64,000 bases of DNA. Origin: a virus. This document shows positions 1,656 through 59,172 of the stretch, piece by piece. A program made the translations under genes and the position numbers. The notes beneath the pieces are model-generated. The model made no database searches and was not told the origin of the DNA. It saw only the letters and a program-made list of their open reading frames with translations. Positions within the stretch are counted from its first letter, which is position 1. Every line of letters begins with the position of its first letter. The stretch covers positions 31,878 to 95,877 of the IMG/VR virus record IMGVR_UViG_3300042308_000216, one strand, 5' to 3'.

Positions 1656-1660
1656 TAACT

Positions 1661-2629
1661 ATGGCTACTTCAGGTAAACTTATCAGTTTAAAAACTATTG
1701 TAGAGAGAGTCTACATGGATTTTGGATTCAATTATTCATTATCATTCACAGAAGCTGCTGAATGGGCTGGTAGTTTACTTGCTTTACTTAAAGCTCCTGT
1801 AGTATTACAACACCATGTTGAAGAGATTGTAATTGATGAAGGTAGAGGTAAACTCCCTTGTGATTTAGAATCTATTATACAAACTGCTAGAAAAGTAGAA
1901 GGTGTTAGTGATGGTTGTTCTACAGGTGTAATTGCTACATTAGATAGAGGTACACAGTATGTAGAAATCTCTGCTATTGATATTGTAAATAGAAAGTTTA
2001 AGTTATGTGGTTGTAATGCATTCACTACTTGTGATGAGTGTACTACTGTTGAAGGTCCAGATATTCCAGGAAATATTCCTTGTGAACCTCGTAAACCTAT
2101 TATCAGAAGATATGGTGGTGGTACTGAAAGACCTAACTTTAGATTAGAGCCTATGAGATGGGCTACTGATTCTTTTAATAATAGTATGCATTGTACTAAT
2201 TATGATTATGCTTGTGGTCGTGGAACTAGTACATATACAGTAAATGGTAATTACATATTTACATCTTTTGACCATGGTTCTGTAATGATGGCTTACTTAG
2301 CTATACCTACAGATGAAGAAGGTTATCCTTTAATTCCTGCAGATGAATGGTGGAGACAAGCAGTACAATATGAAATTGCTTATAAGATTGCAATGAAATT
2401 ATTTATCCAAGGTAATATTGCAGATAAAACATTTCAATACATTGAAAAAGAAAGAGATTGGAAAGTAGGACAAGCTGTTAATAAATCTAAAATGCCTTCT
2501 ATTGATGAGATGGAATCATTTAAGAATCAGTGGCTTAGACTTATTCCAAATTATAACAACCATACTACATTCTTTAAGAATATGCAGATGCCAGAGAGAA
2601 TGTTTAATCATCCATATAGATACTTTTAA
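1661..2629 (+). CDS. Tail tubular/adaptor-like protein (P22 gp4-like candidate)
   Basis: 322 residues. The N-terminal helices (LISLKTIVERVYMDFGFNYSLSFTEAAEWAGSLLALL) followed by a strand that mentions DEGRGKLPCDLESI match the pattern of podovirus head-tail adaptors: a helical layer that bonds to the ring above and a beta domain below. A cysteine-rich loop (CGCNAFTTCDECTT, residues about 114-127) could bind zinc. The C-terminal third is helical. It directly precedes the muzzle/stabilisation gene by 3 nt, the arrangement of tail tubular and stabilisation genes in crAss-like genomes. The name is inferred from position and general architecture; a structural search would settle it. Confidence 0.55.
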   Translation: MATSGKLISLKTIVERVYMDFGFNYSLSFTEAAEWAGSLLALLKAPVVLQHHVEEIVIDEGRGKLPCDLESIIQTARKVEGVSDGCSTGVIATLDRGTQYVEISAIDIVNRKFKLCGCNAFTTCDECTTVEGPDIPGNIPCEPRKPIIRRYGGGTERPNFRLEPMRWATDSFNNSMHCTNYDYACGRGTSTYTVNGNYIFTSFDHGSVMMAYLAIPTDEEGYPLIPADEWWRQAVQYEIAYKIAMKLFIQGNIADKTFQYIEKERDWKVGQAVNKSKMPSIDEMESFKNQWLRLIPNYNNHTTFFKNMQMPERMFNHPYRYF

Positions 2630-2632
2630 TAT

Positions 2633-17100: not shown

Positions 17101-20100
17101 GAGTTGTATCTGAGAATGTAGAAACTGATTTACAAACTTTAATTAATATTAGAGCTGCTGTTACAAATGAATTTCAAGATATTAAACTTAGTTCTAAAAG
17201 TAATGGTAAACTAAACCAGTTACCAATGTTCTATAGATTATCAGAACTTATTGATGAGAATGTAGAGTTTGCTATTGCAACATCATCTATTCAATTAAAC
17301 ACTAGTAAAGTAACACCTGTTGAAAATTTAGCTAATACTAAAGGCTACAAAGTAGGTCAGGTATATGCATTAACTGTTATGCCTGATGGTAGAAAGTTAG
17401 CTGTACCTGTAAAGACAACTAAGATTAAAGAAAACCCACAAGTACTTACAGAGTTAATGTCTGCTTTAGATATTTTCTTAAAAGGAGGTAATAGAGAAGA
17501 CTTACAAGCTGTTTTTGGTAAATACTTACATTCAGTATTTAGTAAAGATAAACTAACACCAGATGGTAATTCTTTTCAAGAAGACCCTAATGGTAATGAT
17601 AGATTCTATATTGACTTTACTTCAACAAATGTTAAAGGTATTATATTTGGAAAAGCAGGATTTTCTAAAAACTTTATTAGTGGTGATACACCTATAGATG
17701 CTTTAGAAGGATTAAAAAAAGAGTTAGCTTCTATTATTCAAGAGAGTTATATCAATCTTAATTTTCAAAGCTTAAAAGACCCTGATTTTGTAAAAACATA
17801 TGTAACAAGTAATGTTAGATTTTATCCATTACCTAATGGTAAGGTAACTGTGTTTGATAATCCAGTACTTGGATTTGACCCATCTACATTAATAAATGCT
17901 ACAGCACCTGCTGCTAAAGTAACACCACAACCTATTGTTACACCTACAACACAAAGTTCTGAATCTGTCTTTAATATAACTATTGAACAGATAAAAAACA
18001 ATATAGCAGAATTAAGAGCTAAAGAACAAGCAGAGTATGCTGCTATTGATCCTAATGATACAGCAGCAAGAAAAAAGATTTATGAAGACTATAATAAATT
18101 AATTACTACTTTAATAAATGAAGCAGAAGCTGATATAGAAAAAAGAAAAGAAGCAGAGTTAGAATTAGAATCTGAAAGAATTGTAGAAAGTACTGAAATT
18201 TGGAAAGATGAAGAAGGTCGTTTATTTAGAATTGATAAACTAAAAAACGGTAAACAAAGATTAGCCGCTACAGATGAAGAAGGTAAACTGCTTAGTGTAA
18301 TAGATATCTATGAAGGTTCTGTATCTCCTACTAAGTTTATAGCAGATGGAGAAAAAGTAAAAGACCAAGAAGTAAAAGAAAATAAGATAGTAGATAAAAT
18401 TAATGCTAAATATAAAGAAGAACTAGATGCTGTAAAACAAGTTAAACCTACTACTACACCTATTTCTGATATAGAAACTAAAAAAGCAGATATAGAAACT
18501 GCTTTTGATTATATAACTACTCGTAAATATAAAGGTGAAAATAATAGATTAAATGAAATAAATAAAATTGGAGAAGATCTTGCTAAACGCTTTGTAGCTA
18601 CTCTTAAAGAAAAAGGTTTAGTTAAAGAAGACTACAGAATGGCTCCTAGAACTGATGGGTCTGTAGAAAAAATGAAAGTAAATACAGATGATAAAGGTAA
18701 TAATTTAGGAAATGATTGGAGTACTGCTGGTAAATTTAAAGATGAGTTTAGAAAATTTGTTAATGTAGAATTAGCTTCTTTAAAAAGTAAAGCTACTACT
18801 ACACCTACAGCACAATCAACTACAGATACTAAAGCTGAAATAGAAAAAAGATTAAAAGAAGAAATTATATCTTTAGAAAAAGATTTAAAGGCTATTAAAT
18901 TTAAAGATGGAAATACACTAGGAAAAATGTTTCCTGATTGGTCAGTAGAAGCTGCTACTTTTATAAGAGAACATTTTAAAAAAGCTGTTACTGAAGAAGA
19001 TTATAATAAAGCAGTAAGATATGAAAACCTAGTAAACCATTTTGATGCTGTAGTTAAAAATGAATTAAATAAATTAACACTTCAACCTACAGCTCAACCT
19101 ACTGCTGCAGATATTAAAGCTGATATAGAAAATAGAATTGTTATTACTGGAACTGACCAAGGATTTGAAGTATATAATACATCAAATATTAAAAATGAGA
19201 AAGCAGGAACTGTAGCTGATGTTAGAAGAAAGTATTCTGATGATAAATATGAAATAGAATTTGGTAAAGGAGATGATAAAAAAAGTATTTTTTCTGATAT
19301 AAATTATGGTCAAAAAGAAGATTCCTATCATTATTTTATAACAGATAAAAAAACAAAGAAGAGATACTACGTAGTAGGAATTAGCAGTAGAGTTACTGGT
19401 ACTGATCCCCAAAGAGATGGAAGTCTATTTGCAACTATAGAGGACGATGGTAATATTACAGATTTTACAAGAACAGTATTAGAACTTGCTCTTATAAAAG
19501 AATTTGAAAATCAAACGAAAAAAAGAAAGAATATATTTAGACCTTTACCACAAAAATTTATTGACAAAGTAAAAGCTGCAGAACAAGCTGCTTTAGGGCA
19601 AGCTCAACCTACACCTGCTACAGAAACACCAACAACTCCACAAGAAAAAGGAGAGTTTTCTATTCAAGGTACATTTCGTGGATTAACTCATGTATTAGGT
19701 GATCCTGCTAATATGATTCCTGATCTTAGAGATACAGGATTTATTGATAAGCCAACTTTTTCTGAATCTGTTCAAAAAGGTAAAAAGTTTTTTACACTTT
19801 CTATTCCACAAGCAGATGATGTTTATAGACAAGGCTATTTATCAGTGTCTTTAGTATTTCCTGAAACAACAACTAAAACAATGGCTGATGTCAAAGCTGC
19901 TTTAGAAGCAAAAGTAGCTGAAGCTAAATCTGTTATTGCAACTGCAAGAGATAAAGGATCTAATGCAGAAGCTTTTTTAAAAAACAAGGTTAGTGCAGAA
20001 TACACAGAACAACCTTCTGTAACAGAACCAGTACCTGTAGTTGAACAACAACCTGTACCACAACCTACAGTTGAATTAAAATCTGCTGGTGGAGCAAAGT

Positions 20101-21461
20101 TTAACTTGAAACTACCTAAAGAAGATTCAGATTTAAGTATAACTACTACAGAAGAACTAGGTGTTGAACAAGTAGCACAAGAAGTATTACCTGCTTTAGA
20201 AGATAGATTAAGAGGATTTTTATCATCTATTAATGTAGATACATTAGTTGTAGATAATTTACAAGAAAGATTAAAAGAAAAAGGATTGAATACTGATGCT
20301 GTTGCAATATCAGATATATTACACAAAGCAATATTCCTAGATTCAGAAAGGTATAATACTATGGATTATGCTGAAGAGGTTGCTACTTTTGCAATTGAGT
20401 TTATGGGAGCTAGTAAACATGCTGAGGCATCTCCTTTAATTAGAAAAGCACTAGACAATATATCAAGTTGGGAAAAATACCAACAATACTATGATTTATA
20501 TAAGGATAATCCTATTTATAAAAACAACGAAAGAAAATTAAAAGTTGAAATACTTAGTAAGCTATTAGCTGAAAAAATAATAGAGAATAAAGATAAAACT
20601 AAAAAAACAAAACAAGATAAAAAGCTAACAACTTTAGAAACTATTATTAATGACATACTAGCTTTGTTTGATAAAATATGGAAATCAGATTACTATAGAG
20701 CTGTTGATAGATTTTTAAAACAAAAAGGTATTCAAACTAAAGGAGTTAATAAAATTAACATTAGACCTTTTGATGCTGTAATAAATGAGATTGTAGATGA
20801 TATACTATTTAATAATACATCTAAAATAATTAATAATGCTAATAGAGCTAGAAAAGGAGAAACTGCTGTTTCTTTAAAAGAAGTTTTAGAAAACAATCCT
20901 ACTATAAATGAGATATATAATAAACTAAACTCTTTAGGTTTTATGTTTACAGGTTCTCCTGCTCTTTCAAATGAAGGAACTATATACAGAGAATCTAATG
21001 ATACTTTACATGATTTAGATTGGCAAGTACCAAAAGAGTTAGAAGATAATTGGTTAGACATAATAAAAGAAACTTTTCCAGAAATAGGGTATAAGATTAA
21101 TGAAAAAACAAATCAAGCTCAGATTTTTAGTAAGGGTGAAAAAACTACTCACACTTTAATGATTAAAGGAATGCCTGTTGACTTTTTTATAAGTGTTAAT
21201 CCTCCATCCAATAAAAATACATTTGGAGATATGAGATGGCAGGATACCTTTGAAGCTAAGATGGATATAGGTAGAGACAAAGACATCAGAGACTTAATTG
21301 ACTTTAAAACTTTATTTAATGATTACTTTTCAAATCCTGGTTACTTATATTATTCTTTAGGTCAAGTTAAACCAGGAAAACAAATTGAAAAATATGTATC
21401 TTTGCAAGATAAGGTTAACACCCTTATAGAAGAAGGTAAAGCAACTAAATTTTGTAAGTAA
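14196..21461 (+). CDS. Giant virion protein with C-terminal nucleotidyltransferase-fold domain
   Basis: 2421 residues. Residues about 75-200 and 365-390 contain Gly/Ala-rich hydrophobic helices (ESLVAFGITGFGVGSVLG; AAGFWGAIGGSMNGFVMG) that could insert in membrane during ejection. Residues about 410-790 are long charged coiled coils, including an Ala/Lys/Glu tract. The middle alternates beta domains with Pro/Thr linkers (TTTPTAQ types), as in multi-domain polyvalent proteins. Near the C-terminus a nucleotidyltransferase triad is visible: GS at 2253-2254 in FTGSPALS, D2273 and D2275 in HDLDW, and a later Asp in MPVDFFIS. The last base of the stop codon is the first base of the next ATG. It is probably packaged with the polymerase ORF; the substrate of the transferase domain is unknown. 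Confidence 0.65.
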   Translation: MPGENLGTTTIAIPLQKIKPYKPTSTTQAVPETYAGPQSRYDDNYFIDQSKMNSEFFQSMRAENQGFGMELATAGANLIPNIALSIGETAGYLFDVEDWSNMIQGNKTDYGNAITKWASDNKNPFGQVYTKSTDGGFDMSDSAWWVSNGGGLVESLVAFGITGFGVGSVLGKSASMLSKTLGAYGKTKFAIEGAAKLGTSLSLAYSEGAMTGAQVFKDVYDDTYNFEYLKNVNAGMGDKEAKARAHYTATDVAGEGATKAVRTNTLINTFLNIPETNVLFRSMGASRYIDDALKLQKGEFARDAVERIKKFDVNKHLTRQGIEHWGKETGSEMLEEMVNVYAEESGKNVGRLATGQDIVSLGDMLANDDIWAAGFWGAIGGSMNGFVMGKMPKWVVQEDGTKKRTTVGAYNKEQVKDKYKEQLTDLQDRLTEFVDARDALDIAAKSGDERAYKEAADKVFSYNSFNSIVKGTEEQLLNDFQEIAAFTPEQAAQQGFASDYKERATEKIQSVRQNTAEWNKIQDRHSSQDLDQAGFPETIFQQHMNVQNNKKIIQDNTIELAKLESEIAQAHVLRGTDLTTTSFNDVKSSIDAVEHAFEMAAKDLSDIDSLSTLDSKTRQKKIAELSNKYGNIENAKIQIQKHLEELEEKREDLFNNLEIQKENFYSFIDPENTMSDDEKLDRYKNIIAQNSSDIYSLTEGKKVLETNRKILASQIEELRVLKSDKGLERFKALKKEKMAERDALDAQAAAKARAEAEAKAKAAKVEEIKVKKKEAPETVTPQEEEIIQANTPVESFEEGVYSGEGSNKEGLEEQYKEITKIADNSDEEGKVKDSSGQTISVGDKLMYGSNKLAYASTVEYIVEDDKIKHTSLKLNPETNPDLLTDKYVPGTKLKIKKLTPEEFKSHEFFAPDNIKFIDEVGREILVANKGQKVTFEMLSHPYMQPIGIYNEAGEYQAMLHAVTYINDNRVVSENVETDLQTLINIRAAVTNEFQDIKLSSKSNGKLNQLPMFYRLSELIDENVEFAIATSSIQLNTSKVTPVENLANTKGYKVGQVYALTVMPDGRKLAVPVKTTKIKENPQVLTELMSALDIFLKGGNREDLQAVFGKYLHSVFSKDKLTPDGNSFQEDPNGNDRFYIDFTSTNVKGIIFGKAGFSKNFISGDTPIDALEGLKKELASIIQESYINLNFQSLKDPDFVKTYVTSNVRFYPLPNGKVTVFDNPVLGFDPSTLINATAPAAKVTPQPIVTPTTQSSESVFNITIEQIKNNIAELRAKEQAEYAAIDPNDTAARKKIYEDYNKLITTLINEAEADIEKRKEAELELESERIVESTEIWKDEEGRLFRIDKLKNGKQRLAATDEEGKLLSVIDIYEGSVSPTKFIADGEKVKDQEVKENKIVDKINAKYKEELDAVKQVKPTTTPISDIETKKADIETAFDYITTRKYKGENNRLNEINKIGEDLAKRFVATLKEKGLVKEDYRMAPRTDGSVEKMKVNTDDKGNNLGNDWSTAGKFKDEFRKFVNVELASLKSKATTTPTAQSTTDTKAEIEKRLKEEIISLEKDLKAIKFKDGNTLGKMFPDWSVEAATFIREHFKKAVTEEDYNKAVRYENLVNHFDAVVKNELNKLTLQPTAQPTAADIKADIENRIVITGTDQGFEVYNTSNIKNEKAGTVADVRRKYSDDKYEIEFGKGDDKKSIFSDINYGQKEDSYHYFITDKKTKKRYYVVGISSRVTGTDPQRDGSLFATIEDDGNITDFTRTVLELALIKEFENQTKKRKNIFRPLPQKFIDKVKAAEQAALGQAQPTPATETPTTPQEKGEFSIQGTFRGLTHVLGDPANMIPDLRDTGFIDKPTFSESVQKGKKFFTLSIPQADDVYRQGYLSVSLVFPETTTKTMADVKAALEAKVAEAKSVIATARDKGSNAEAFLKNKVSAEYTEQPSVTEPVPVVEQQPVPQPTVELKSAGGAKFNLKLPKEDSDLSITTTEELGVEQVAQEVLPALEDRLRGFLSSINVDTLVVDNLQERLKEKGLNTDAVAISDILHKAIFLDSERYNTMDYAEEVATFAIEFMGASKHAEASPLIRKALDNISSWEKYQQYYDLYKDNPIYKNNERKLKVEILSKLLAEKIIENKDKTKKTKQDKKLTTLETIINDILALFDKIWKSDYYRAVDRFLKQKGIQTKGVNKINIRPFDAVINEIVDDILFNNTSKIINNANRARKGETAVSLKEVLENNPTINEIYNKLNSLGFMFTGSPALSNEGTIYRESNDTLHDLDWQVPKELEDNWLDIIKETFPEIGYKINEKTNQAQIFSKGEKTTHTLMIKGMPVDFFISVNPPSNKNTFGDMRWQDTFEAKMDIGRDKDIRDLIDFKTLFNDYFSNPGYLYYSLGQVKPGKQIEKYVSLQDKVNTLIEEGKATKFCK

Positions 21462-24400
21462 TGAGTAATTGTCAAACGACTTTCCAGGATAGAACTATCC
21501 CTTCTGGGGATTTTGAATTTCAAATAGCATCTAACCAAATTGATTTATCACCAACAGACAAGTCTGATTTAGATACAATGTCTTTACTGACATTAGACTT
21601 ATCAACAATACCTTTACTATCTCCTGATAAGATTAACTCTGCTCAACAAGAGGAGATGATTAATTGGTTAACAGGTGAAGTAATTAACTTCTCATTAAAT
21701 AATGCTGTTAAAGGTGTTGATGAAAAAGAGTTAATAAATAATGCTTTTAACGATGCATCAGAGCTTCTTAAAAGCGGTGCTTTACAAGCTGTAGAATTAG
21801 GTATACCAATATTAGAAGAAAGAATAAACAGTATTCTTGAGGTATATGATAAGCTAAAAGAGATTGTACAAATTAGAGTTAATAATTTTGGTATTGATTT
21901 TGAAGCTGATGCTGTTACACCAGAAGATGCTACTGAAAATTATGAAGAAGATAAAGCTTTAAAAGTAAATCCTTATACAAAAATTGGTCAGGAAATTAAA
22001 AGACAGCTTTTTACTATTTATGATTTAGATAGTTTACAAGAGGATGGTTCTTACACAGAAGATGATGTAAAAAGAACTTGGTTTGGATTCCCTGCTTACA
22101 AATCTATTAACCAAGTATTACCCACAATACTATCACACTCTAAAGATTTACCTGCAGAGTTTGATGTGATTAAAGCAAAGATGCTAGATAGCAAAGATGC
22201 TAATAAATGGTTTGTACCCTTACTTGATAAATTAAGTGAGGCTGATGGACAAGTTAGAAATCAGTTTTCTAGATGGGCTAGTAAAGCACAAATCAATTTA
22301 AAGTATTTATTGTTTGATACCAAGACTAATGAGTTTCAATTTAACAATAGTAACTCAGGTAGGCAAGTAGATATCATAACTAACAAATGGAAGAATAACC
22401 TTATACAAACAGAGCTATTTAAAATTAATCCAGACACTAATGAGTATGAGTTAGATAGAGAAAAAGCAGATGCTATAACTAAAAACTTTGAAGCATTCAG
22501 TGAAAAGTATAAAATGCTTAAAGAGAATTATCCAGAAGAGTTATTTACAGAACTGGCTGATATCTTAAAAAGTATTGGTGTTGATATTAAACCAAGAGAA
22601 ATTAAAAGAATGCAAAGGTTTCTTGATACACAAGGAACCAAATGGGGGAATAGTCCAAGAGCTAAATTTAGTCAGTTCTTTGTAGCTGATAAAGGTGCAG
22701 TGGATTTTATGATTCAAAGATTATCTAAAGCAGATAAAGAAGCTGAAGGTTCTTTTAATAAATACAATCCACTATCTAATAATACTGGTGTTAGAGCATT
22801 AACATTGTTATACTCTTATTACCAAGAAATTTCTACTAATGATTCTTACAAGAATAGTAACAATGATACTATTTATGCATATAGTCCTAAGAAATATGCA
22901 ACAGACCAATTTCAAAGAATAGCTGATACAGCTTATTTAGGTAGATTAATGGAAACTCAATTTGCTAGTAACTCTACTTGGGGTAAAGCATTGATGTCTG
23001 AGGATCCTGATACAAGAGCTAGATTTCTAGAAGTATTCACATTAGATTATTTTGATGGTGCTACAGGTAAAGGCTCTAAATTAAATACTCCATTTGACCA
23101 ACTATCTGCATCTGAAAGAGAAAAGTTTTTACTGACTTGTTTTCAAAACCAAAATAGAAAAGTACAAAGTAAATACAGATATGGTTCTACTTCTTATCTA
23201 ACTATGTCTGATAAGAAAACCTTAATTAGTGTTCAACATATATTAGAAGATGTTGATATTAATCCAGAAACAAATAAGCTAGGTAGTAAAAGTATTGACT
23301 TATTATATCAAGTATTTAAAGCAGAGCAGCAAAGGATTAGAGAATTTGAAGCATTAAGTGCAGAGAATAAAAAAGGTTTATCAAAAGAATATGTAAAAGG
23401 TGCAAAAGAGTATATCTTAAATCCTTGGGTTACAAAATATAAAGCTGAAGGAAAAGAACTTGACTCATCAGAAGATGTTAAAATAGCTATTGAAGAATAC
23501 TATAATGATATTATAAATACTAAAATAGCTACTTGGAAAGAGGTTGGTATTATATCTACAGATAATGAAGATAATATAACTACAACTTTTGATAAAGAGT
23601 ATTTTGAGAATGTTAAAAATAGTAAAGTAGGTAGTAAAGCAAATATTAATGCTGCTATTGCTTATGCTGCTATTGACTATGAAGTAAATACAATAATTGG
23701 TAACTTAAATCTATTTCAATTATTTGCTGGTGACCCAGCTAGTTATTGGAAAAACAATGTTGATGATACATTAGTAAATGTTGGTAAACGTCTAGCAGCA
23801 CAGATTGCTCCTGGAGATTCATTAGCTAATACTAGATATACAGACATTGCTGGTATTAATGGGCATAGCTATACACAAGTTATTGCTAAAGACCATAAAA
23901 TGATATCATCATCTATCAAGTATCTAACTAAGCTGCTTGATGGTAAAGAAGTTACTGATAAAGAGATTGAAGATTATAGAGCAGGTAATACTAAAGCAAT
24001 AGAAGAAAAATATCCTAATGCTGCAGCTTACTTTGATATAGAAGCTACTGATGCTCAGGAATATACTACAGCATTAGAGCATGCTTACAATCTATACCAT
24101 GAAGGTAAGTTATCTGATAAAGTATATAAAGACTTAGCAAATAAATTAATTAATGATAGAGAGTTAAGTGATAGTGATGTTAAAGTGCTAATGCAACCTA
24201 TGAAACCAGTTTACTTTAATGGTGATGTTAAGTCAGCAGGTACTGGTTCATTAAATTATTATGATATGTCTTACATTAAGACTTCATCATTTCCATTGTT
24301 AAAAGAATTTACAGTAGGTACTGAGCTTGACAAGTTAAGAAAACAACTAGAGAAATTACAAGACCCAACTGGTTCTAAAGACCCTAGCCAAATTAAACTT

Positions 24401-27400
24401 GTTAGAATGGTAATGAGTTCAGGTATTAAGATTGGTGCTGTGCAGAATCCTGTAACAGTATTCAATCCTGATGGAACAGTTAATCCTGATATTGACTTTA
24501 CAAGCTCTACAAAGTCTTTAACTAGAGATGGATATAGAATTCAGTTAGAGGTTCCTTTAAAAGATAAGAAAGAAGTTAATAGAGGTACACAAGAGATTAA
24601 ACTTTTGTTTACAGATTTACTTGACCATAAATTTGCTAATGGTAAAACAGGACAACAGTTAAAAACTGAATACCTTGATTTAAACAGACAACTATTTAAA
24701 ACTCAATTAGAGATATTTAAAAACCAAATAGATGCAGATGAAAAAGGTGAATTTAATATTCAACTATTAAGAGATAAACTAGTAGAAGAAGCACAATCAA
24801 GAAACTTTTCACTGAATGAGATTGAGTCTTTGAGACTAGTTGATTTAGACTCTGAAGGTAAGTTTGTAATTCCATTAGTTTTTAACTCAGCATCAGATAA
24901 GTTTGAAAGCTTAATGATTTCTTTAATAGATAACTCTGTTAGAAAACAAAAGCAAACTGGTTACAGCTCTCCATTAGGTTCATCTTCTGGATTTAAATTT
25001 CAGAATGACCTTAAAAGTATAGATAAGAGTAAAATTATTTGGGTTGAAGGTTTTGATCCATCAGGAGATTTAAAGCAACAAAGAATTGTAGATGGTAAAG
25101 TAAGAGGTTCACAAGTATTTGTACCTTGGAAATTCAGAGATAACAATGGTAAGCTTTTAAATGCAAAAGATTTTACTAAAGAGTTGCCTGATGGTAGAAT
25201 AGTAATTGATCATGATAAATTACCAAAAGATATATTAAAGTCATTTGGATTTAGGATTCCTACACAGGGATTAAACTCAATGGCTTATATTGAGATTGCA
25301 GGATTTTTACCAGAAGAATCTGGTGACTTGTTAATTGCACCTGCTGAATTTACAAAGCAGATGGGTTCTGACTTTGACATTGATAAATTATATAGTTACT
25401 TATATACTACAGAATTTAATTATAAAACTGGTAAACTAGAAAAGTTTGTATTTAATAATAAAGATGTATTTGAAATACTATCTAGTACTAACTCTAGTTT
25501 AGTTACTAAAGACAATAAAGATTACAGATTAAAAACATTAATCAAAGAGTTTGGATATATTAAAGTAGCCAAATCTCTTTTCCAATTTTATAACAGTAAA
25601 ATAGATACTCTTAAAAAAGAGTTAGATGATAAGTGGTCATTACATGAAGCTTTTGTAAGTAATGTACTAGACACTATTGATGTTAAAGAAGCATCATTGG
25701 ATACAAATAAAACATTAATCAATAAAGCTTTTAGAGAGAATGAAATCTATGTTGCTTTCTTGAGAGATGAGTTATCAGAGTTAAGGTCTGTAATATCTGC
25801 ATTAGAGAAAAATGAATTAGATGAAGGTGTTAATGAATACCTTGTAGATAAATTTGATATCTATGTAGATGAAGTAAGAACAGAAAGTATAAATGAATTA
25901 CTTAGAAAAGAGTTTGAATTAAATAATAGATTAGAAAAATCTGTTGTAATAAAAGAAAGTCTTAAGAAGTTTAATGCTTCTATTAGTGATACTGTAAAAG
26001 TTGCTTTAGATATTAAGAATGATATTTTTGAGACTAAAAGAGATTTAAGAAATATATTAAAGTACACTAGTACATTACAGAATGAAATTCTAGATATGCA
26101 CATCACAGTGCTATCTGACCCATCAGATTTAGTACAGTCTAAAGTAACATCAGCATTAGGATTTGGTAAGCTAGGTGAACTTAAAAAGGTATATGATAAA
26201 GAATCTAAATCAAAAGCAGAAAGTACTAGCCCTTTATCATCAGGATACCAATCTCAGAAATATTTATCTGCAAGAGGTGGTAAAGCAGGTACAGGATACT
26301 TTAGTGCATTAAATGTATTTGTATCTGTTATGCAGGGACTAGGATTAAAGTATAATGTATCTACTCCTGTAGATAATGGTAAATTTGCAATGATAGAGAA
26401 AAACCTAGTTATCCATAAAAAAGGTAATGGGTTGAGTAAGAATGTTGATAACATGAATAACCTTAAATCTGAGAATGCTGTAGCATACCAATCAGCAGCT
26501 GTGGATGATGAGAAAGAACAGATTATGGCTTCTCTTAATATCACATCAGAAACATTCTATGCTATTGGTGCATGGATATTAGATGGTCATTCACAAGAAG
26601 CTATTACAGGTATTTTAACTCAGCCTATTGTTGCTGAGTATATCAATGCAATCAATAATAAAACAGATATTTTTTCAGATTTTACTAAGAATGCAGATCT
26701 TATTGTGTTTAATGAGTTGTATGAAAAGTACTCTAAGATGACAGGTCTTAGTCAAGAAATATTAAATGAAACTGATTTTAATAATACTGTATTATCAGAA
26801 GATGTTTTATGGAATTCTTACAAAGCTACTACTAAAGATGCTAATTGGGCTATGACTCAATTAACTGCTCTACATAAATTTAGAGAAGCTGATGTTATGG
26901 GTAAAAGCATACAAAAAACCATCAGTGCATTTAGTGTGGATTCTAAAGGATTAGGTAAATCTTTTATAGAAGTTGGTTTAAAGTTAGATGATATTAAAAC
27001 TGAAAGAGAAAGTGGTAAAATTACTAACATAGAAAAACTACTTAATCAATCTGTAGGTGGATTAGCTGTGCAATATTCTTTAGAAACAGTTCACCAACTA
27101 TTTAGTAAGTTCTACCCATACTTAATTCCTGAAAGTTATAACAAAGTTACTTTTGATGAGTATTTACAAGTTACATTTAAAGATAATCTTTCAGCAGAGC
27201 AAAGAGAAAAAGAGTTTAGAGATTTCTATAACCACATGAAAGCTGGTGTGTATGCAAATATGCTTCAGCAACCTGGTGTAGATTTATATACTAGAAGAAA
27301 AGAGTTAATGTATGGTGAAAATTCATTAGGTAAAAGAGTACAAGAACTGCAAAAAACTACTAAGAACCCATTTTTAATTAAACTTACTCCTAATGTAGCT

Positions 27401-30400
27401 ACTATTGTAGGAGATCCTGATACAGTAAGTATGAGGTCTATTGGTGGTGAGTTATTTAATGAAGATGATTTATATGTTGGCTTTTTAGATTTATTTAATA
27501 AACCTGAAAACAGACAGTTAGCTAAAGACTTAGTTGATTACTTCTATATTAATGGTGGTAGTCAGAAAGCTAGAGAGTTTTCTAAATATATTCCAACTGG
27601 GTTTATGGTTGCTAGTGGTTATGCAGATAGTTTAAGAAGTGCTAACTTATTTAACCTATCAAATATTCTAGGTTCACCTCAAATGTTTTTACAGAACTAC
27701 ATCAGAAACAATCCTAGTAAAGCACCTCAACTTAATAGAGGAGATTATACTATGAGTCCTGATGGTAAAGTCACTGTTACTAGTGACCAATTTACATATG
27801 TACCTAAAAATGGTGTTGATGTTGGTGTTAGTACAGCAATACCTTATGTTTCAATACCAGAAGTAAAAGTAAATCCAGATGATAGTATTAAAGTAACTAT
27901 AAGACTTTACATGTATGATGACCAAGGTAGTTATGTAGAAATTCCTAGATTGGGATTTACAACATCAAACTATTCAGGTACAGAGTATGGTAGTAGATAT
28001 TCTGCTATAGATTCTAATGCTGTAAAACAAAGAGTTCAAAATCCTAATACAGTGCAAGAACCTGTTAGGCAAGAAGCTAGTTCAGATCCTGTTATTCCAA
28101 ATAGTATTAAAGTAGCTGCTAATGACTTTGAAGCACTAAACATTAATAAGGTTAATAACAAAGAAGATGTTAAAGTAACACTATCTATTATTAATAACAG
28201 TACATCAAAAGCATTATTAGACTTACTTGATAAAATAGGTAGCTTAACTTTAGAAGCTACTCCAGGTAATTCTTCATATAAAGCAGGTAGAATTACAATA
28301 GATAGTAGAATTAAAGATCCATCTGTACTACAAACTAAAGTATTGCATGAAGTTACACATGCTGTAACATCTGAAATAATTAATAAAATACTATTAAACC
28401 CTAATAACCCTAACTTTGAAGGATTATCTGAATCTCAAAAGTTAGCTTACATGAGGTTAAATAAAACATTTACTACATTAAGACAATCTGTAATTGATGG
28501 TAGAGTACCTGGATTAAACAAAGAAGGATTAGAATTATTTGAAGCTAAAATAGATGCCCTTAAAAAAGGTCAAAAAGGAATTGACTTTACACCAGATGAT
28601 GTTGAGTATAATCCATATTTAAATCTTAAAGAATTTTTAGCAGAAGCATTTTCTAATACTACTTTTCAAAAGCAATTAGATGCTATGAAATTTACTGAAG
28701 ACAGATCAATGCTTCAGAAGTTGTTAGAAGATATTGCAAACTTCTTAAATAAATTTGTAGCTGACTACAATAAAGATAATGTACTTGCTTCTGTACTATA
28801 TGATGGGTTTACACTAGCTGGTGGTAATGAAGTAAATATTTATTTTAAATCTGGTGAAAATAGAATACTATCTAATTTAAATTTAAATTCTTTTACAGGT
28901 AAAGATGGTAAAAGATATGCTTCTGTAGAACATGCATACCAATCTTGGAAATCAGGATCATTTGATGAATCAACATATACATCTCCTAATTGGGTATTTA
29001 ATGGTGGAGATAATTATAAAGTATCTGGTAATAAAGGTACTAAAACAGAAAACAATTGGAATCTAGATTTAATGAAAGGTCTTATTAGACAATCATTAGA
29101 TCAAAACCCAAATGCTAAACAAGCATTACTTAATACAGGAGATAAAATACTTACTCATAACCAAGATAATACTATTTGGAAAAATGCTTTTCCTCAGATA
29201 TTAATGGAATTAAGAAAAGAGTATTATGATGCAGGATTATCTGGTGTTAACAATCCAAGTGATTATGTTAATCACTCTGGTGGTGCTGTAGGTTCTGATG
29301 AATCTTGGGATATTATAGGTAGACAATTTGGTGTAACACAGCATAAGCATTACAGAGAACCAGGTGCATTAAAGCTAGACTCAGCTGAACTTGATAGTAG
29401 AGGTATTAAACCTGTAAATGTATCTGAAGCTTTATACAATGAAGGTATTCAAAAATCTACTAGAGCAGCTCAACAAATGTATGGGTTAAAAGGTCAGATA
29501 AAAATGAATTACATTATTCGTAATTGGGCACAAGTTAAAAATGCTGACTCTATATATGCAATAGGTGTAATTCTTAAACCTGGTAATAGACTTAATACAA
29601 AAGATGATAGAATAGCTTTAGTACCACAAGTAAAAGGAGGTACAGGATATGCAGTACAGATGGCTATTAATGAAGGTAAGCCTGTATATGTATATGATGG
29701 CACAAAGAATGGGTGGTTTAAATATGATTACAATATAAAAGATTTTGTACCTACAAGTATACCAACACTTACTAAAAACTTTGCTGGTATAGGCTCAAGA
29801 AAATCTCAAGATTGGAATAAAGATTTACAAGCTATTAGAGATGTTTATGCTAATACTTTTAAAGTACAGCAAGATACTTCTACAAATACTGGAGGTAATC
29901 CAAAAGGAGAGAAAATTGCTGATGGTATGTATGTAAACCAACAAGGACTATCTCCACAAGAAGAACTTGAATTATTTGAACTTGTTAGACCAATTTTAGA
30001 GCAACAAGCTGTAAAAAGTAATAAAGGTAAATCAGCTCCTAAAATGGCTGGATTAAATTTAAATTGGGATTATGTAAGTAATAGAAGAGGGCAACAGACA
30101 AGAATAAATGTTGGAGAAACATTAAAACCTAATGATACTTATGGTTGGTTTACACAATCTGCTAATGGTCAAGAGTTATATCCAATTACTGGTAGAATGA
30201 TAGAGTTAATGAGTAAAGCTACTGGTATAGATGTTAGTAATTATGATGGTTCTATTATAAATATATATGATTCTAATAGTTTTATTGGTAACCATCCTGA
30301 TATTGATGAAAGTAAGACAGCAGAAAAATATCCTGTTGTTGTTGTTAATATAGGAGGTCCAGGAAATATTGTATTAGGTAATAAAAAAGTTGATTTAAAT

Positions 30401-32407
30401 TCAGGAGCAGGTTATGTATTTGGATTTGAAGGTAAAAATAGAACTATACCTCATTCTACTTATGCAGCACCTATTAAAGGTACATTACCATCTATAACAA
30501 CAAGTATGGATGGTGAGACATTAGCAGCTGGTTCTTATAGAGTTTCAATTACTATGAGAAGAGTTATGCCTTTAGAGCAAGGTATGCCTAGTAAACCAAA
30601 TACAGTTAATACCATATCTAAAACTCAACCTGTTGAAACTAGTACTGAAGAAATTCAACAAAACTTAGCTGAACCTACACCTCAACCTCAGAAGAGTACA
30701 TTTACATATAAAAATAAAACTATAGAAACTGAGTTTAAACTAACAAATGGTCAAGTAAATGCAATAGAAAGACTTACTGATTTTGCATTAGGTAACACTA
30801 AAACAATTACATTGCAAGGAGCTGCTGGTACAGGTAAAACATCTGTTATAGGTTACTTACAAAAGTTCCTAGGTGACAACTATAACTTTATTTATATGGC
30901 ACCTACACATGCAGCAACTGCTGAGTTAGCAACTGCTACAGTTAAGTCAGGTAATAGAGATTTACCTATGACTGTACAATCTGCATTTAATAAAAGACAG
31001 AATCAAGATACTGGTGAGTGGGAATATGGTACTACTAAAAAGTTAAATAATAAATTAGAGTATACAGATAATATTATTGTAATAGATGAAGTATCTATGT
31101 TAGCTGATAAAGACTACAACATAATACTAGATGCTATTAAAAAGAAACAGATTCAAGTTATCTTTATGGGTGACATACTTCAGATACCTGAAGTTGATAC
31201 TAATAATCCAGAAAGAAAAAGTGTATCAAAAGCATTTTCTGCTAATGAGCAAGTATTACTTACTGAAGTAAAAAGAACTGATGATAATGATATACTTACA
31301 ATCTTAACAGAACTTAGAAACAACCCAACAAGTTTAATACCAGTAATACCAAATAGTAATAGATTACAGTATTTAGACCAAGGAGAGTTTGATAATCAAA
31401 TAGTAGAAACTATTAGAATAGAACCTGAAGAAACTGTACTACTTAGCTATACAAATAATGGTGTTAAAGACAGTAATAGAAAATTAAGAAGAGCATTAGG
31501 TAGAGTTGGTAATCTACAAGAAAATGATATTATAGTTGGTTTTTCAGGTTACAAGTCTAAGCAAATTGAAAAAGGAAACATTGCTAATAGTGTTAGATAC
31601 ACTGTAGAAAATGTTGAAAAAGATGGTAGTAATTATATTATAACAGCAAAATCTCAAAAGCTAAAGGCTTTAGAAGATTTAGGTGTAAAGAATGTAAATG
31701 AATATGCAGTAGGTACATACAAACAATTATCAGCAAATGATTCTTTAGTATTTGAAGACCTTACTAATGAAGACCTTGAAAAAAACAATAGAGATGTTTC
31801 AGAAATATTAAAACTAGTTTATGATACTAAGCAAGCTGCTGTAGCTAGAAGAATTAGATGGAATGTATATGATGCTGCTTTAGCTAAAGCATCTATGTAT
31901 TTTGAAAATGTTAATTTAGGTAGTGACTATGTTTATAATCCAAATACAAATAGAATGGAGTTATACAACTATATAGTTCATGGTGACATACTTAAAAACT
32001 TTGCAGAGTTAAAAGTAGAAAAAGGTATTGACTATGGTCATGCTATTACTATACATAAATCTCAAGGTAGTACAATCAAGAATGTATTTTTTGATGCTAG
32101 TACTTTACCTCAAGGAACATCTTCTAAATTAATACAGAATGGTAATCAAATAAGTACTGAGAAGCATTCTTTAATCTATGTAGCTCTATCAAGAGCATCT
32201 AATATGTTAGTAATTAATAAATCAAATATTAGTAATTTCTATACATTGAACAAAGATTCTAGAAACACAACAGATAATTCAATATCTTTGCCAAAAGATT
32301 TAGGTATGGACAATCTTGAATTTATGAAAGATTTAGATAAACAAGAAAGAGCTGCATATCGTAAATTATTTAATGATGGCACTTTTAAAGTAAAATGTAA
32401 TGGGTAA
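21461..32407 (+). CDS. Giant fusion: virion RNA polymerase-like, metallopeptidase, NADAR, SLOG, AlkB and SF1 helicase
   Basis: 3648 residues in one uninterrupted frame. The loop DFDID at 1304-1308 matches the DxDxD metal-binding loop of the single-chain crAss-type virion RNA polymerase; residues 1 to about 2150 are taken as that enzyme. Next come an HEVTH zinc-peptidase motif (H2296, E2297, H2300, with EFLAEAF as third-ligand candidate), a NADAR-like domain (about 2457-2592, SVEHAYQSWK and LLNTGDKIL), a SLOG-like nucleotide-binding domain (about 2604-2800, HSGGAVGSDES, GGTGYAVQMAI, AGIGSRKS), an AlkB-like dioxygenase (about 2813-3038: H2945-x-D2947, H2998, R3027 and R3033), and a RecD/Dda-like SF1 helicase (GAAGTGKT at 3120-3127, DE at 3209-3210, HKSQGST and YVALSRA late). 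It overlaps the next gene by 8 nt. Domain calls come from motifs only. Confidence 0.75.
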   Translation: MSNCQTTFQDRTIPSGDFEFQIASNQIDLSPTDKSDLDTMSLLTLDLSTIPLLSPDKINSAQQEEMINWLTGEVINFSLNNAVKGVDEKELINNAFNDASELLKSGALQAVELGIPILEERINSILEVYDKLKEIVQIRVNNFGIDFEADAVTPEDATENYEEDKALKVNPYTKIGQEIKRQLFTIYDLDSLQEDGSYTEDDVKRTWFGFPAYKSINQVLPTILSHSKDLPAEFDVIKAKMLDSKDANKWFVPLLDKLSEADGQVRNQFSRWASKAQINLKYLLFDTKTNEFQFNNSNSGRQVDIITNKWKNNLIQTELFKINPDTNEYELDREKADAITKNFEAFSEKYKMLKENYPEELFTELADILKSIGVDIKPREIKRMQRFLDTQGTKWGNSPRAKFSQFFVADKGAVDFMIQRLSKADKEAEGSFNKYNPLSNNTGVRALTLLYSYYQEISTNDSYKNSNNDTIYAYSPKKYATDQFQRIADTAYLGRLMETQFASNSTWGKALMSEDPDTRARFLEVFTLDYFDGATGKGSKLNTPFDQLSASEREKFLLTCFQNQNRKVQSKYRYGSTSYLTMSDKKTLISVQHILEDVDINPETNKLGSKSIDLLYQVFKAEQQRIREFEALSAENKKGLSKEYVKGAKEYILNPWVTKYKAEGKELDSSEDVKIAIEEYYNDIINTKIATWKEVGIISTDNEDNITTTFDKEYFENVKNSKVGSKANINAAIAYAAIDYEVNTIIGNLNLFQLFAGDPASYWKNNVDDTLVNVGKRLAAQIAPGDSLANTRYTDIAGINGHSYTQVIAKDHKMISSSIKYLTKLLDGKEVTDKEIEDYRAGNTKAIEEKYPNAAAYFDIEATDAQEYTTALEHAYNLYHEGKLSDKVYKDLANKLINDRELSDSDVKVLMQPMKPVYFNGDVKSAGTGSLNYYDMSYIKTSSFPLLKEFTVGTELDKLRKQLEKLQDPTGSKDPSQIKLVRMVMSSGIKIGAVQNPVTVFNPDGTVNPDIDFTSSTKSLTRDGYRIQLEVPLKDKKEVNRGTQEIKLLFTDLLDHKFANGKTGQQLKTEYLDLNRQLFKTQLEIFKNQIDADEKGEFNIQLLRDKLVEEAQSRNFSLNEIESLRLVDLDSEGKFVIPLVFNSASDKFESLMISLIDNSVRKQKQTGYSSPLGSSSGFKFQNDLKSIDKSKIIWVEGFDPSGDLKQQRIVDGKVRGSQVFVPWKFRDNNGKLLNAKDFTKELPDGRIVIDHDKLPKDILKSFGFRIPTQGLNSMAYIEIAGFLPEESGDLLIAPAEFTKQMGSDFDIDKLYSYLYTTEFNYKTGKLEKFVFNNKDVFEILSSTNSSLVTKDNKDYRLKTLIKEFGYIKVAKSLFQFYNSKIDTLKKELDDKWSLHEAFVSNVLDTIDVKEASLDTNKTLINKAFRENEIYVAFLRDELSELRSVISALEKNELDEGVNEYLVDKFDIYVDEVRTESINELLRKEFELNNRLEKSVVIKESLKKFNASISDTVKVALDIKNDIFETKRDLRNILKYTSTLQNEILDMHITVLSDPSDLVQSKVTSALGFGKLGELKKVYDKESKSKAESTSPLSSGYQSQKYLSARGGKAGTGYFSALNVFVSVMQGLGLKYNVSTPVDNGKFAMIEKNLVIHKKGNGLSKNVDNMNNLKSENAVAYQSAAVDDEKEQIMASLNITSETFYAIGAWILDGHSQEAITGILTQPIVAEYINAINNKTDIFSDFTKNADLIVFNELYEKYSKMTGLSQEILNETDFNNTVLSEDVLWNSYKATTKDANWAMTQLTALHKFREADVMGKSIQKTISAFSVDSKGLGKSFIEVGLKLDDIKTERESGKITNIEKLLNQSVGGLAVQYSLETVHQLFSKFYPYLIPESYNKVTFDEYLQVTFKDNLSAEQREKEFRDFYNHMKAGVYANMLQQPGVDLYTRRKELMYGENSLGKRVQELQKTTKNPFLIKLTPNVATIVGDPDTVSMRSIGGELFNEDDLYVGFLDLFNKPENRQLAKDLVDYFYINGGSQKAREFSKYIPTGFMVASGYADSLRSANLFNLSNILGSPQMFLQNYIRNNPSKAPQLNRGDYTMSPDGKVTVTSDQFTYVPKNGVDVGVSTAIPYVSIPEVKVNPDDSIKVTIRLYMYDDQGSYVEIPRLGFTTSNYSGTEYGSRYSAIDSNAVKQRVQNPNTVQEPVRQEASSDPVIPNSIKVAANDFEALNINKVNNKEDVKVTLSIINNSTSKALLDLLDKIGSLTLEATPGNSSYKAGRITIDSRIKDPSVLQTKVLHEVTHAVTSEIINKILLNPNNPNFEGLSESQKLAYMRLNKTFTTLRQSVIDGRVPGLNKEGLELFEAKIDALKKGQKGIDFTPDDVEYNPYLNLKEFLAEAFSNTTFQKQLDAMKFTEDRSMLQKLLEDIANFLNKFVADYNKDNVLASVLYDGFTLAGGNEVNIYFKSGENRILSNLNLNSFTGKDGKRYASVEHAYQSWKSGSFDESTYTSPNWVFNGGDNYKVSGNKGTKTENNWNLDLMKGLIRQSLDQNPNAKQALLNTGDKILTHNQDNTIWKNAFPQILMELRKEYYDAGLSGVNNPSDYVNHSGGAVGSDESWDIIGRQFGVTQHKHYREPGALKLDSAELDSRGIKPVNVSEALYNEGIQKSTRAAQQMYGLKGQIKMNYIIRNWAQVKNADSIYAIGVILKPGNRLNTKDDRIALVPQVKGGTGYAVQMAINEGKPVYVYDGTKNGWFKYDYNIKDFVPTSIPTLTKNFAGIGSRKSQDWNKDLQAIRDVYANTFKVQQDTSTNTGGNPKGEKIADGMYVNQQGLSPQEELELFELVRPILEQQAVKSNKGKSAPKMAGLNLNWDYVSNRRGQQTRINVGETLKPNDTYGWFTQSANGQELYPITGRMIELMSKATGIDVSNYDGSIINIYDSNSFIGNHPDIDESKTAEKYPVVVVNIGGPGNIVLGNKKVDLNSGAGYVFGFEGKNRTIPHSTYAAPIKGTLPSITTSMDGETLAAGSYRVSITMRRVMPLEQGMPSKPNTVNTISKTQPVETSTEEIQQNLAEPTPQPQKSTFTYKNKTIETEFKLTNGQVNAIERLTDFALGNTKTITLQGAAGTGKTSVIGYLQKFLGDNYNFIYMAPTHAATAELATATVKSGNRDLPMTVQSAFNKRQNQDTGEWEYGTTKKLNNKLEYTDNIIVIDEVSMLADKDYNIILDAIKKKQIQVIFMGDILQIPEVDTNNPERKSVSKAFSANEQVLLTEVKRTDDNDILTILTELRNNPTSLIPVIPNSNRLQYLDQGEFDNQIVETIRIEPEETVLLSYTNNGVKDSNRKLRRALGRVGNLQENDIIVGFSGYKSKQIEKGNIANSVRYTVENVEKDGSNYIITAKSQKLKALEDLGVKNVNEYAVGTYKQLSANDSLVFEDLTNEDLEKNNRDVSEILKLVYDTKQAAVARRIRWNVYDAALAKASMYFENVNLGSDYVYNPNTNRMELYNYIVHGDILKNFAELKVEKGIDYGHAITIHKSQGSTIKNVFFDASTLPQGTSSKLIQNGNQISTEKHSLIYVALSRASNMLVINKSNISNFYTLNKDSRNTTDNSISLPKDLGMDNLEFMKDLDKQERAAYRKLFNDGTFKVKCNG

Positions 32408-35400
32408 AACTTGTAGGGTAATTTCAAATGATGATATTTTTAATTCTTTAGAAGAATTAATGCATCAACATGTAGCAACTGTATTGAGGACTAGATTTGA
32501 GATGGCTAAAGAGGCTGGTACTGCTGATAGAATGTTAACTTTTCTTATTGATAGATACAAAAAGCACAAGAATAGACAGCCAGAAGATAGAATATTTGAT
32601 AACTACAAAGATGCTAGAGACTATTTTTTAAATACAAGACAAAACTATGACCTTGTAAACCCACCTAGAAAGATTGTAGGTAGTGGTAGCTATGCAGTGT
32701 ATTCATACTCAGGTATGCAATATGCTAATATTATCAGTCAGTTATCAGAAAAACTTGATGAAGAACTAAGCTACTATGAAGAAAAAACTATAGAAGAAAT
32801 TAGAACTAAGCAAAAAGAAGCTAATGAAATCTTTAATGATGAAGGTGAATTATATGCTCCTGATGGTGACATTGACTATTCTGTTAGTATAGAATCACAA
32901 TATGACTTTGTACTTAAAAGAAAAAAGGAAGAGATGACTAACCTTGACAGGTTAATTGCTTTAGAAAAGTCTAAAAGAAATACTGAGAATGTTGAGAAAT
33001 TAACTAAGGCTAAAGAAAGATTAGAGGAAGATATTAAAAAACTAATTGATACTCCTAACTTTTCTGATATAATGAATATAGCATCTGATGATTTAGAAGA
33101 GATAAATACTATTTTAGATAAAGATATGCTATCACCACAAGATCTAGTTATTGTAAAAAACAAACTTGAGTTTTGGTTGAGTGATAAATTTAGAGATGCT
33201 TTTTTTACTAGTGCAGATAAGATTAATGAAGTACCTAGTTATAAAGCTTTTTTAGTTAAAAAAGGAGAGTTTGATAGAAAGAGAGTTCAATGGGAAGACT
33301 TAGCTTCTGCTTACATGAATAGTGTTATTAAAGATGTTACTAATAATAACTATACAGTAGAAGAGCTTAAGATAATGAAAAAACAATTACTAGAGATTAA
33401 TATTGGTCAAGGTCAGATGAGAGATTTATCTACTGACTCTAATATCTTTATTCAAGTAATTGATACTAAAATGAAAGAAGCTAGTGAATTTGCTAGACAA
33501 GAGGTACTTACTTTTCAAAAGAAATTAACTGAAGAAACAGAAGCTTTAATAAAAAGAGCAGGTACTAATAATCCTAAGAAATTATATGAACTGTTTTTAC
33601 AATTAGATTCTAAAGGCAACTGGTCTGGTGGTGTTGTAAATAGATTTTCTCAAAAGTTTTTTGATGCTAGACAAGCAATACAAGTTACAGATTGGTCAGA
33701 TACTGAGAAAGTAAAAGCTAAATACAAATGGTTAAAAGAAAACACAATTACTTTTGACCCTCGTAAACTATTTTATGAAGATTACCTAGAAATGGAAGAA
33801 GGTAATCGTCCAGCATTATTTGATGAAGAGTCTAGAGAAGCTCATATACAAGAACTTAAAAGAGAACTTGGTGAAAGAGGCTTTGCTAATTACTTTGAAA
33901 AACAAAAGAAAGTATTTGAAGATTTCAAAGAAAGATATAATGAGCTTAAAAATACTACAGAAGGTACAGAAGAAGAAGTTAAAGCTGCTTTAGATGCATG
34001 GAAAAAAGAATGGTCTCCATTCTACTACCTTGATAAAACAACAGGTGCTAATGTAAGTGCTGGTAAATTTTTAGGTTATAATTATATTGTAAGTGTACCT
34101 AGAAGATTTAAAAGAGATGGTGAGCCTACTGGTTGGTATGATAAAAACTTTGATAGAATTGAAGCAGACCCTGATTATTTAAAATACTATGAATTCTTAA
34201 CAGATTCTCTACAGAAGTTTAAAGCATACTACCCATCAGATAATGAGTTACAAACAAATTACTTACCTGAGCTTAGAGAAACCCAAGTATTAAAACAATT
34301 CTTTACTAATCCATTAGCATTAAAATCTAATCTATATGATTTCTTTATAGACCAGACAGCAGAAAATGAGATATTCCAAGATCAAACAGATTCTATGGGT
34401 AATCTTATTAGAATATTACCTGCACATATGATGTCTAATAATATGTCAAAACTAAGTGCAATAGAAAAAAGAATACTTGTTGATGAAGCAGTTAAGAAAA
34501 TACCTGATACTACTAGTGTAGAGTTTAAAGCTTTATTGCAACAAATGCAGTATGATGCAATACAAAAGAAACTTAAAGAAAAATCTTTTGATTTATTTAA
34601 AGTATTATCAGCACATGCTGTAACAGCAGAAACTTACAAACATAAAACTAGAACAGAAGATTTTCTTAGAATAGCAAAAGACTTTGTTTATAATGCAGAA
34701 AGAATAAATGTAACTGCTAATGGACAAACAAGTTCTTCTATCATGGGTTTCAATACACAAAAAGATGGTTTAAGAAATCTAATTAATGCTTTTGATTATG
34801 CTGTAGATTCTTGGTATGGTTTAAATAAAAATAAAAAACCGGGTAAACTAGTAGCTAAAGATTTAGAATCTAAAAAGAAAATAGAAGACTATGAAGCCAG
34901 TTTAAAACAGTTAAAAGAGTCAGAGCAAGATGACGAAACTGTAAAAAAAATCAAGGCTATTGAAGAAAATATTAGATCATTACAAAAAATATTTATCACT
35001 TCAAATGCTTCAGACTCTGTGCTTAAATATATCCATATAAAGTCTATGGGTTGGAATCCATTCTCTGCAGTAACTAACTTAGGTTTTGGTTTTATATCTA
35101 ACTATACACATGCAGCAGGTGAGCAAGACTTTACTTCTGAAGAACTTAATAAAGCATATGCTTATTTACTAAACAATGTTTTCAGAGCAACAAGAGCTGT
35201 TAATATGAAAACTGCAGTTAAGATAAGCCAGCTTATGATGGAGTATGGTGTAGTTGGAGATATTAGAGAAGGTACTGGTAGTCATGCTATTAAAGGTATT
35301 AAAGAAAAATTTAAAATTCTATTACCTTATGAAATGACTAGTAGAGCAGAGTTTGTTAACCAAGGTTCTACATTTATAGCAATGATGCTTAATACAAAAA

Positions 35401-59167: not shown

Positions 59168-59172
59168 ATTTG

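Follow-up and report, generated by a model that had tools for sequence, protein, structure and literature searches.

A crassvirus virion RNA polymerase fused to a variable set of enzyme domains, and end cysteines that may join it to the adjacent cargo proteins

Results and discussion

Genome and gene map

The window, by which we mean the whole 64,000-nucleotide stretch of DNA that was analyzed, comprises positions 31878-95877 of a 95,877-base IMG/VR virus record. Terminase, portal, tail ring and muzzle genes of the crassvirus type are present in this genome, as is typical of the Crassvirales. Because the terminase is only approximately 32% identical to the terminases of many crAss phages, the genome is assigned to a distant lineage. 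The features of the window are listed in Table 1. The 2421-residue protein encoded upstream of the polymerase has a counterpart that is fused to the RNA polymerase (RNAP) in FpV4-type genomes. The 1287-residue protein encoded downstream corresponds by its location within the block to phi14:2 gp65 and crAss001 gp49, and it is fused to the polymerase in 16 relatives.

Table 1. Location of the features discussed, in window coordinates; residue numbers refer to the 3648-residue polymerase except in the rows for the two neighbouring proteins
Feature	Position	Strand	Basis or remark
Tail ring 2	92-844	+	Pfam CrAss_Ring_2, 3e-37
Tail ring 1	1661-2629	+	Pfam CrAss_Ring_1, 2e-51
Muzzle	2633-7432	+	Pfam crAss_MUZ, 1.5e-118
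Tail gene block (ring 2, ring 1, muzzle)	92-7432	+	Marks genome as crassvirus
Probable cargo protein 1, 1636 aa, 1 Cys	7435-12345	+	Weak crAss_CARG1 match, E 0.028
Probable cargo protein, 611 aa, 0 Cys	12357-14192	+	
Upstream cargo protein, 2421 aa	14196-21461	+	Sole Cys C2420 at 21453-21455 (KFCK, then stop)
Polyvalent virion RNA polymerase, 3648 aa	21461-32407	+	ATG start, no internal stop
N-terminal end cysteine of RNAP, C4 (MSNC)	21470-21472	+	
crAss-type RNAP core, residues ~672-1860	23474-27040	+	DFDID at 25370-25384
HEVTH of zincin-like metallopeptidase region (residues ~2180-2450)	28346-28360	+	Motif and position
NADAR, residues ~2457-2580	28829-29200	+	Profile and AF2/Foldseek
SLOG, residues ~2600-2802	29258-29866	+	Phage homologues, phrog_768
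AlkB-type 2OG-Fe(II) dioxygenase, residues ~2845-3045	29993-30595	+	Pfam, PDB 5xeg, Foldseek
SF1 helicase, RecD2/Dda-like, residues ~3058-3600	30632-32260	+	AAA_30, UvrD_C_2, phrog
C-terminal end cysteine of RNAP, C3646 (KCNG, then stop)	32396-32398	+	
Downstream protein, 1287 aa	32400-36263	+	Sole Cys C5 at 32412-32414 (MGKTC)

Elsewhere in the window, a 277-residue protein encoded on the minus strand (57166-57999) has a cysteine-rich start (CIAPNVIYGCFGGCVNTYC) that resembles a radical-SAM-type cluster site, and a single tRNA-Arg (tct) gene (59172-59244, minus strand) lies amid small minus-strand genes.

RNA polymerase core and zincin-like region

An earlier note made from the DNA alone had described a single open frame of 3648 residues, and this is confirmed, as are the places of its motifs: DFDID at residues 1304-1308, HEVTH at 2296, a Walker A sequence (GAAGTGKT) at 3120, the AlkB-type HPD at 2945-2947 with H 2998, and the SLOG-type GGAVGSD near 2607. 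In a phmmer search, residues 672-1329 matched 6vr4, the virion RNAP gp66 of phi14:2 (E-value: 1.5e-25), and the residue alignment of the two proteins runs through DFDID. In an alignment of 45 relatives, the three aspartates of this motif, the lysine that follows it and seven more positions are invariant. The AlphaFold (AF2) model of residues 802-2001 (pLDDT 81, pTM 0.79) returned 6vr4 as its top Foldseek match (E-value: 3e-33, probability 1.00, TM-score 0.63 by query). In the phi14:2 enzyme, both double-psi barrels lie within one chain (PMC7886860). A predicted structure lacking such barrels around DFDID had been named beforehand as one result that would count against the earlier reading; the modelled region instead adopts the phi14:2 fold. 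Based on homology, motif and fold, the core of the 3648-residue protein is almost certainly a crAss-type virion RNAP, as had been proposed.

In one relative (L025:8836-14375), the polymerase is broken within its catalytic motif, with QMGSD followed approximately 230 bases further on by FDVDK. The frame of this RNAP also contains several stops. An intron together with recoded stops would account for both features, and the end cysteine pattern described below is kept nonetheless.

Most relatives belonging to the clade of the window RNAP have an HExxH motif, located 700-1300 residues after DFDID, and the equivalent motif in FpV4 gp32 is HEVIH. The zincin-like region had no match in Pfam or NCBIfam profile searches; its assignment rests on the conservation of HExxH at a conserved place, and its identity is graded below those of the other tail domains. 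Judging from the sequences compared, RNAP and HExxH are the part common to relatives and the enzymes downstream of them are variable.

Enzyme domains of the tail

The NADAR domain of the window sequence alone falls under the Pfam cut-off (0.0067) but matches phrog_1017 (3e-10), and a profile built from the window and three relatives matches YbiA 2b3w (1.1e-11) and the ADP-ribose-bound NADAR 8bau (1.6e-7). Foldseek assigned the AF2 model to both of these structures with a probability of 1.00. The domain carries a histidine (LTH, 2564) where YbiA types have glutamate; this is the phage-type position, as phage NADARs have a histidine in place of Glu125 (PMC11543638).

The SLOG domain is 36-60% identical to other phage proteins, among them a stretch of the virion RNAP of Klebsiella phage Pylas (36.6% identity, E-value: 2e-25). 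Giant proteins of the crAss phages cr113_1, cr109_1 and cr130_1 are also among its matches in annotated phages. It matches the DprA-like phrog_768 (2.7e-6) and has no Pfam match; its AF2 model is of high confidence (pLDDT about 90-98), and no SLOG structure was among the Foldseek matches listed. The SLOG alignment used two rows, a three-row version with L060 being poor. In Pylas (L007:9001-9528), the same SLOG family lies inside the N4-type virion RNAP at residues ~983-1158. As this family is found in both the window RNAP and an N4-type RNAP, two unrelated ejected polymerases appear to have taken up one domain.

The AlkB region shows the HxD...H...R set of a 2OG-Fe(II) dioxygenase-type domain and matches Pfam 2OG-FeII_Oxy_2 (7.9e-5) and PDB 5xeg (0.0024); its model, of moderate confidence, matches AlkB 3t3y in Foldseek (probability 0.92). 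A scan of IMG/VR with this domain returned solely a relative that was already known. The helicase matches Pfam AAA_30 (1.4e-20), UvrD_C_2, a Dda-like phrog (9.5e-62) and RecD2 (4e-15), and Walker A and B and motifs V and VI are all found, as in an SF1 helicase of the RecD2/Dda-like type. Helicase-like models were the only PADLOC matches, and the 3648-residue protein also matches phrog_16227 (3.5e-64).

Profile, homologue and Foldseek matches thus uphold the NADAR, SLOG, AlkB and SF1 assignments proposed earlier, each of which we consider likely to very likely; the enzyme roles attached to them, including guanine-ADP-ribose hydrolysis by NADAR, are putative and follow from their families. With several unrelated enzyme domains and a zincin-like region (recognized by motif and position) in one giant chain, this is a polyvalent protein.

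A variable slot behind the polymerase

Close relatives differ in what follows the polymerase. L003 matches the window protein at 92% identity across 2598 residues (95% in the helicase) but lacks SLOG, and its AlkB is different. L004 carries an A1S_2505-family module in the slot, and L023 (87%) has the helicase in place of NADAR. L026 and L028 share 98% identity across 1452 residues, yet of the two only L026 has NADAR. In other relatives the slot holds SLOG, ASCH, RNase H, or NADAR with ART, or is empty, and the FpV4 chain stops soon after the zincin region. Because these relatives differ here, the five-enzyme set of the window is one filling of a slot: the five fused domains reported earlier are present, but as the contents of a variable cassette slot and not as a fixed set. 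The 3648-residue fusion is a new variant that adds to the polyvalent virion RNAPs. The variable slot would allow crassviruses to carry enzymes of ADP-ribose, NAD-signal and DNA-repair types into the cell with the polymerase, before gene expression. It has previously been suggested that Macro and NADAR domains are packaged into virions (PMC9503650).

A search of IMG/VR for NADARs of this type gave 60 loci, most of them in cysteine-poor giant ORFs, many with DFDID. The tail of one relative (L048:14441-18205) contains NADAR, an SF1 helicase and an ART-PolyVal domain; it is possible, from these domain matches, that an ADP-ribosyl transferase and an ADP-ribose remover are combined within one chain. 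In L013 (14723-16321), the slot that follows the zincin region holds an RNase H domain (Pfam 1e-10). Several genes of L006 (3-2355, genome bases ~16003-18355) have collagen-like GPQGPQG repeats and likely encode fibre proteins.

Cysteine depletion and end cysteines

The window RNAP has cysteines at positions 4, 560 and 3646 only. Together with its two neighbours (2421, 3648 and 1287 residues), it contains 5 cysteines in 7356 residues, compared to approximately 109 expected from the 1.49% mean over twenty other genes of the window genome, and four of the five sit at the two gene breaks. The polymerase tail has 1 cysteine in 1353 residues (20 expected). In phi14:2, gp67 ends in NTIC, gp66 begins with MAC and ends in QECK, and gp65 begins with MSC; there are no further cysteines in these three proteins. 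In crAss001, gp47 ends in RCNS, gp50 begins with MSKRC and has a cysteine nine residues before its end, and gp49 begins with MAKKC. The crAss001 gp47 gene is on the strand opposite to gp50 and gp49, yet the end cysteines are kept, so a nucleotide-level effect where the genes meet does not explain them. An overlap of start and stop codons was likewise rejected as their cause, as the spacing between genes varies between -13 and over 50 bases and the crAss001 genes lie on opposite strands.

The same arrangement was found across approximately 160 crassvirus loci: where the block is cut, the first protein ends in a cysteine and the next begins with one, and where it is fused both are absent. Among 300 adjacent ORF pairs from these loci, 146 have both end cysteines, 147 have neither and 7 have one only. 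The N-terminal cysteine of RNAP is present in 62 of 65 loci where RNAP is cut from the upstream part and in 1 of 66 where it is fused; on the tree, the cysteine follows the cut in approximately 7.5 of 8 independent pairs on supported branches (sign test, p 0.008). The C-terminal cysteine is present in 129/129 loci where RNAP is separate from the downstream protein and in 0/16 where it is fused (4/4 independent pairs). Loci sampled by NADAR or SLOG rather than by chain ends gave the C-terminal cysteine in 24/24 and the next N-terminal cysteine in 22/22. GTDB assemblies that were unused in finding the rule, some of them TAG-recoded, obey it at 10 of 10 intact junctions; this set left out L323, L328 and L332 (a cysteine-rich ORF in an archaeal record, or short ORFs), and for L321, L329 and L330 a C-terminus was not determined. 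A break approximately 265 residues before DFDID (L018-L028) also obeys the rule. Some of the seven exceptional junctions can be put down to the start codon chosen, to a wide gap, to a frameshift or to a cysteine at position -9 (crAss001 gp50); L130 is among those with no such cause. The earlier note missed this rule that ties RNAP to both neighbours, and end cysteines are not mentioned in the crassvirus and ejection literature that was searched, a scope outside of which the phi14:2 RNAP paper lay. We have very little doubt that the pattern at gene breaks is real.

Strict freedom from cysteine is not universal, as a gut/rumen clade (L144, L145, L148, L157 and L160) keeps the end cysteines with 12-41 other cysteines in RNAP. 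Comparison of these sequences suggests that the end cysteines are kept for their own sake. The upstream partner in L148, L157 and L160 may be a large ORF on the opposite strand, which has a cysteine near its C-terminus.

Several ejected proteins of other phages have zero cysteines: N4 vRNAP (3500 residues), Pylas vRNAP (3819), T7 gp15 (747) and T7 gp16 (1318). This would fit, by analogy, with threading in general, and cysteine depletion may be a mark of ejected proteins generally, usable as a sequence sign of them. In the loci L172 and L173, N4 vRNAP, gp51 and gp52 and T7 gp15 and gp16 all lack cysteine. The zero counts of the N4, Pylas and T7 proteins could also mean that cysteine is simply avoided in ejected proteins and that a terminal cysteine is tolerated as harmless. 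We regard this as very improbable, as tolerance can neither yield the opposed C-terminal counts of separate and fused polymerases nor link cysteines to gene breaks, and the N4 and T7 proteins examined are without end cysteine pairs.

A packaging signal confined to the C-terminus was rejected because the next gene has a matching N-terminal cysteine. Each terminal cysteine might separately bind a common packaging or portal factor, unrelated to the neighbouring chain, given that in the genomes examined the terminal cysteine pattern is confined to packaged proteins of the RNAP block and is absent from other cargo. This is a poor prospect, although a slightly better one than tolerance: the first protein has no N-terminal cysteine and the last no C-terminal cysteine, though these are ends too. 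The three exceptions (L038, L053 and L162) are chains with one extra member that begins with cysteine, and they still obey the rule.

A proposed disulfide linkage for ordered ejection

MS/MS has detected gp65-67 in phi14:2 virions, and crAss001 virions contain gp47, gp49 and gp50 (Bayfield 2023, PMC10172136); virion packaging and early transcription are known for relatives of the window RNAP. In crAss001, the cargo must partly unfold to pass tail constrictions under 50 A, and disulfides hold other parts of the mature virion together (PMC10172136). What sets the order of ejection was left open in that study.

Ejection as one chain, as proposed earlier, is indirectly supported by this virion proteomics and by the near absence of cysteine from the tail. 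The tail is likely ejected together with the polymerase. Zincins in polyvalent proteins have been proposed to process the chains that contain them (PMC5512222), and the zincin-like domain could therefore cleave the tail enzymes off RNAP, making them separate late proteins instead of ejected cargo. We consider this unlikely, as the tail is as cysteine-free as RNAP and bears the C-terminal end cysteine, and relatives hold it in the same frame.

Because cysteines are nearly confined to the ends at chain junctions, we suggest that disulfides link the separate proteins through their ends. The head-packaged 3648-residue chain would thread its way down the tail and enter the cell ahead of the DNA or along with it, as the middle of three chains (2421 residues, RNAP, 1287 residues). 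In the released virion, a disulfide formed in the oxidizing outside world would connect the C-terminus of one protein with the N-terminus of the following one in place of a peptide bond, giving one threadable chain of approximately 7356 residues that the reducing cytosol would then cut apart. Once inside, RNAP would transcribe early genes while the added enzymes act at once: NADAR would reverse ADP-ribose marks, SLOG would bind or cut NAD-type signals, AlkB would repair alkylated nucleic acid and the helicase would clear the template. We infer the disulfides themselves and their timing, and likewise the sequence in which the chains are ejected and what the enzymes do.

The end cysteines could instead belong to a contact between RNAP subunits, either non-covalent or bridged by a metal; fusion would build this contact in, and the cysteines would then be lost. 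Each of the three proteins is RNAP or associated with it, and they are often fused, which probably places their ends near each other. Two cysteines are seen per junction, and such a pair could help to bind metal or form a plain subunit contact. No conserved histidine or third cysteine that would complete a metal site was seen near the ends. The cysteine alone is constant, at position -1 to -7 on the C side and residue 3 to 7 on the N side, with neighbouring residues that vary widely, and the loss of all other cysteines is what a disulfide needs. Such a contact therefore seems doubtful to us. Native chemical ligation is also unlikely, as the cysteine is at residue 3-7 and not at residue 1 after removal of methionine.

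On the pattern of cysteines, we hold it to be somewhat probable that disulfides stitch the chains head to tail for ordered ejection. We lean equally towards a split polyprotein that was rejoined, with a cysteine put wherever a cut creates an end, the other cysteines almost all removed, and ejection as one thread. Fully fused single chains of 5100-5600 residues have no cysteine; as the count along the chains runs through the C-terminal cysteine, the independent evidence from this count consists of these fused chains and the lengths.

An order-wide cysteine rule at gene breaks would be a simple physical answer, testable on cultured phages, to the question of how several huge phage proteins are sent through a narrow tail in sequence; stitching of this kind, if true, would order protein ejection in a categorically new manner. 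Published MS data from reduced and non-reduced crAss001 virions are perhaps enough to test the disulfide. The computed masses of the linked tryptic pairs are 1812.8234 Da for gp47 CNS with gp50 CITTNSTIEELAAK and 1992.0172 Da for gp50 ICGANTLYEL with gp49 CAIIPQVR.

Comparison with known systems

The earlier note knew of no polymerase fused to all of these domains. Fusions of N4-like RNAPs to a metallopeptidase and other enzymes have already been described (Iyer 2017, PMC5512222), as have large multidomain crAss transcription proteins (PMC7886860); the polymerase of the window differs from the former in being of the crAss type. The polyvalent proteins of Iyer 2017 resemble it as giant phage proteins with many enzyme domains and a zincin-like region, but crAss, NADAR and AlkB do not occur in that text. 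N4-type vRNAP is a single-subunit RNAP unrelated to the crAss type (PMC4496689). Pylas gp65, of this N4 type, is likewise an ejected giant RNAP with added domains, including the same SLOG family, but it is one chain without any cysteine, at its ends or elsewhere.

Among crassviruses, phi14:2 gp66 shares the RNAP fold, DFDID, the place between upstream and downstream cargo genes and the end cysteines at both termini. At 2180 residues, however, it lacks HExxH and is too short for a NADAR/SLOG/AlkB/helicase tail. Flavobacterium phage FpV4 gp32, a 4287-residue virion structural protein, resembles it in having RNAP and HExxH in one chain and a C-terminal cysteine, the only one in gp32; in contrast to the window protein, the upstream cargo protein is fused in front and there are no cassettes. 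The gp47, gp50 and gp49 proteins of crAss001 form the same three-part block, all in virions, with end cysteines at the C-terminus of gp47, both termini of gp50 and the N-terminus of gp49. This block differs in that gp47 is encoded on the opposite strand and HExxH lies in gp47 and not with RNAP.
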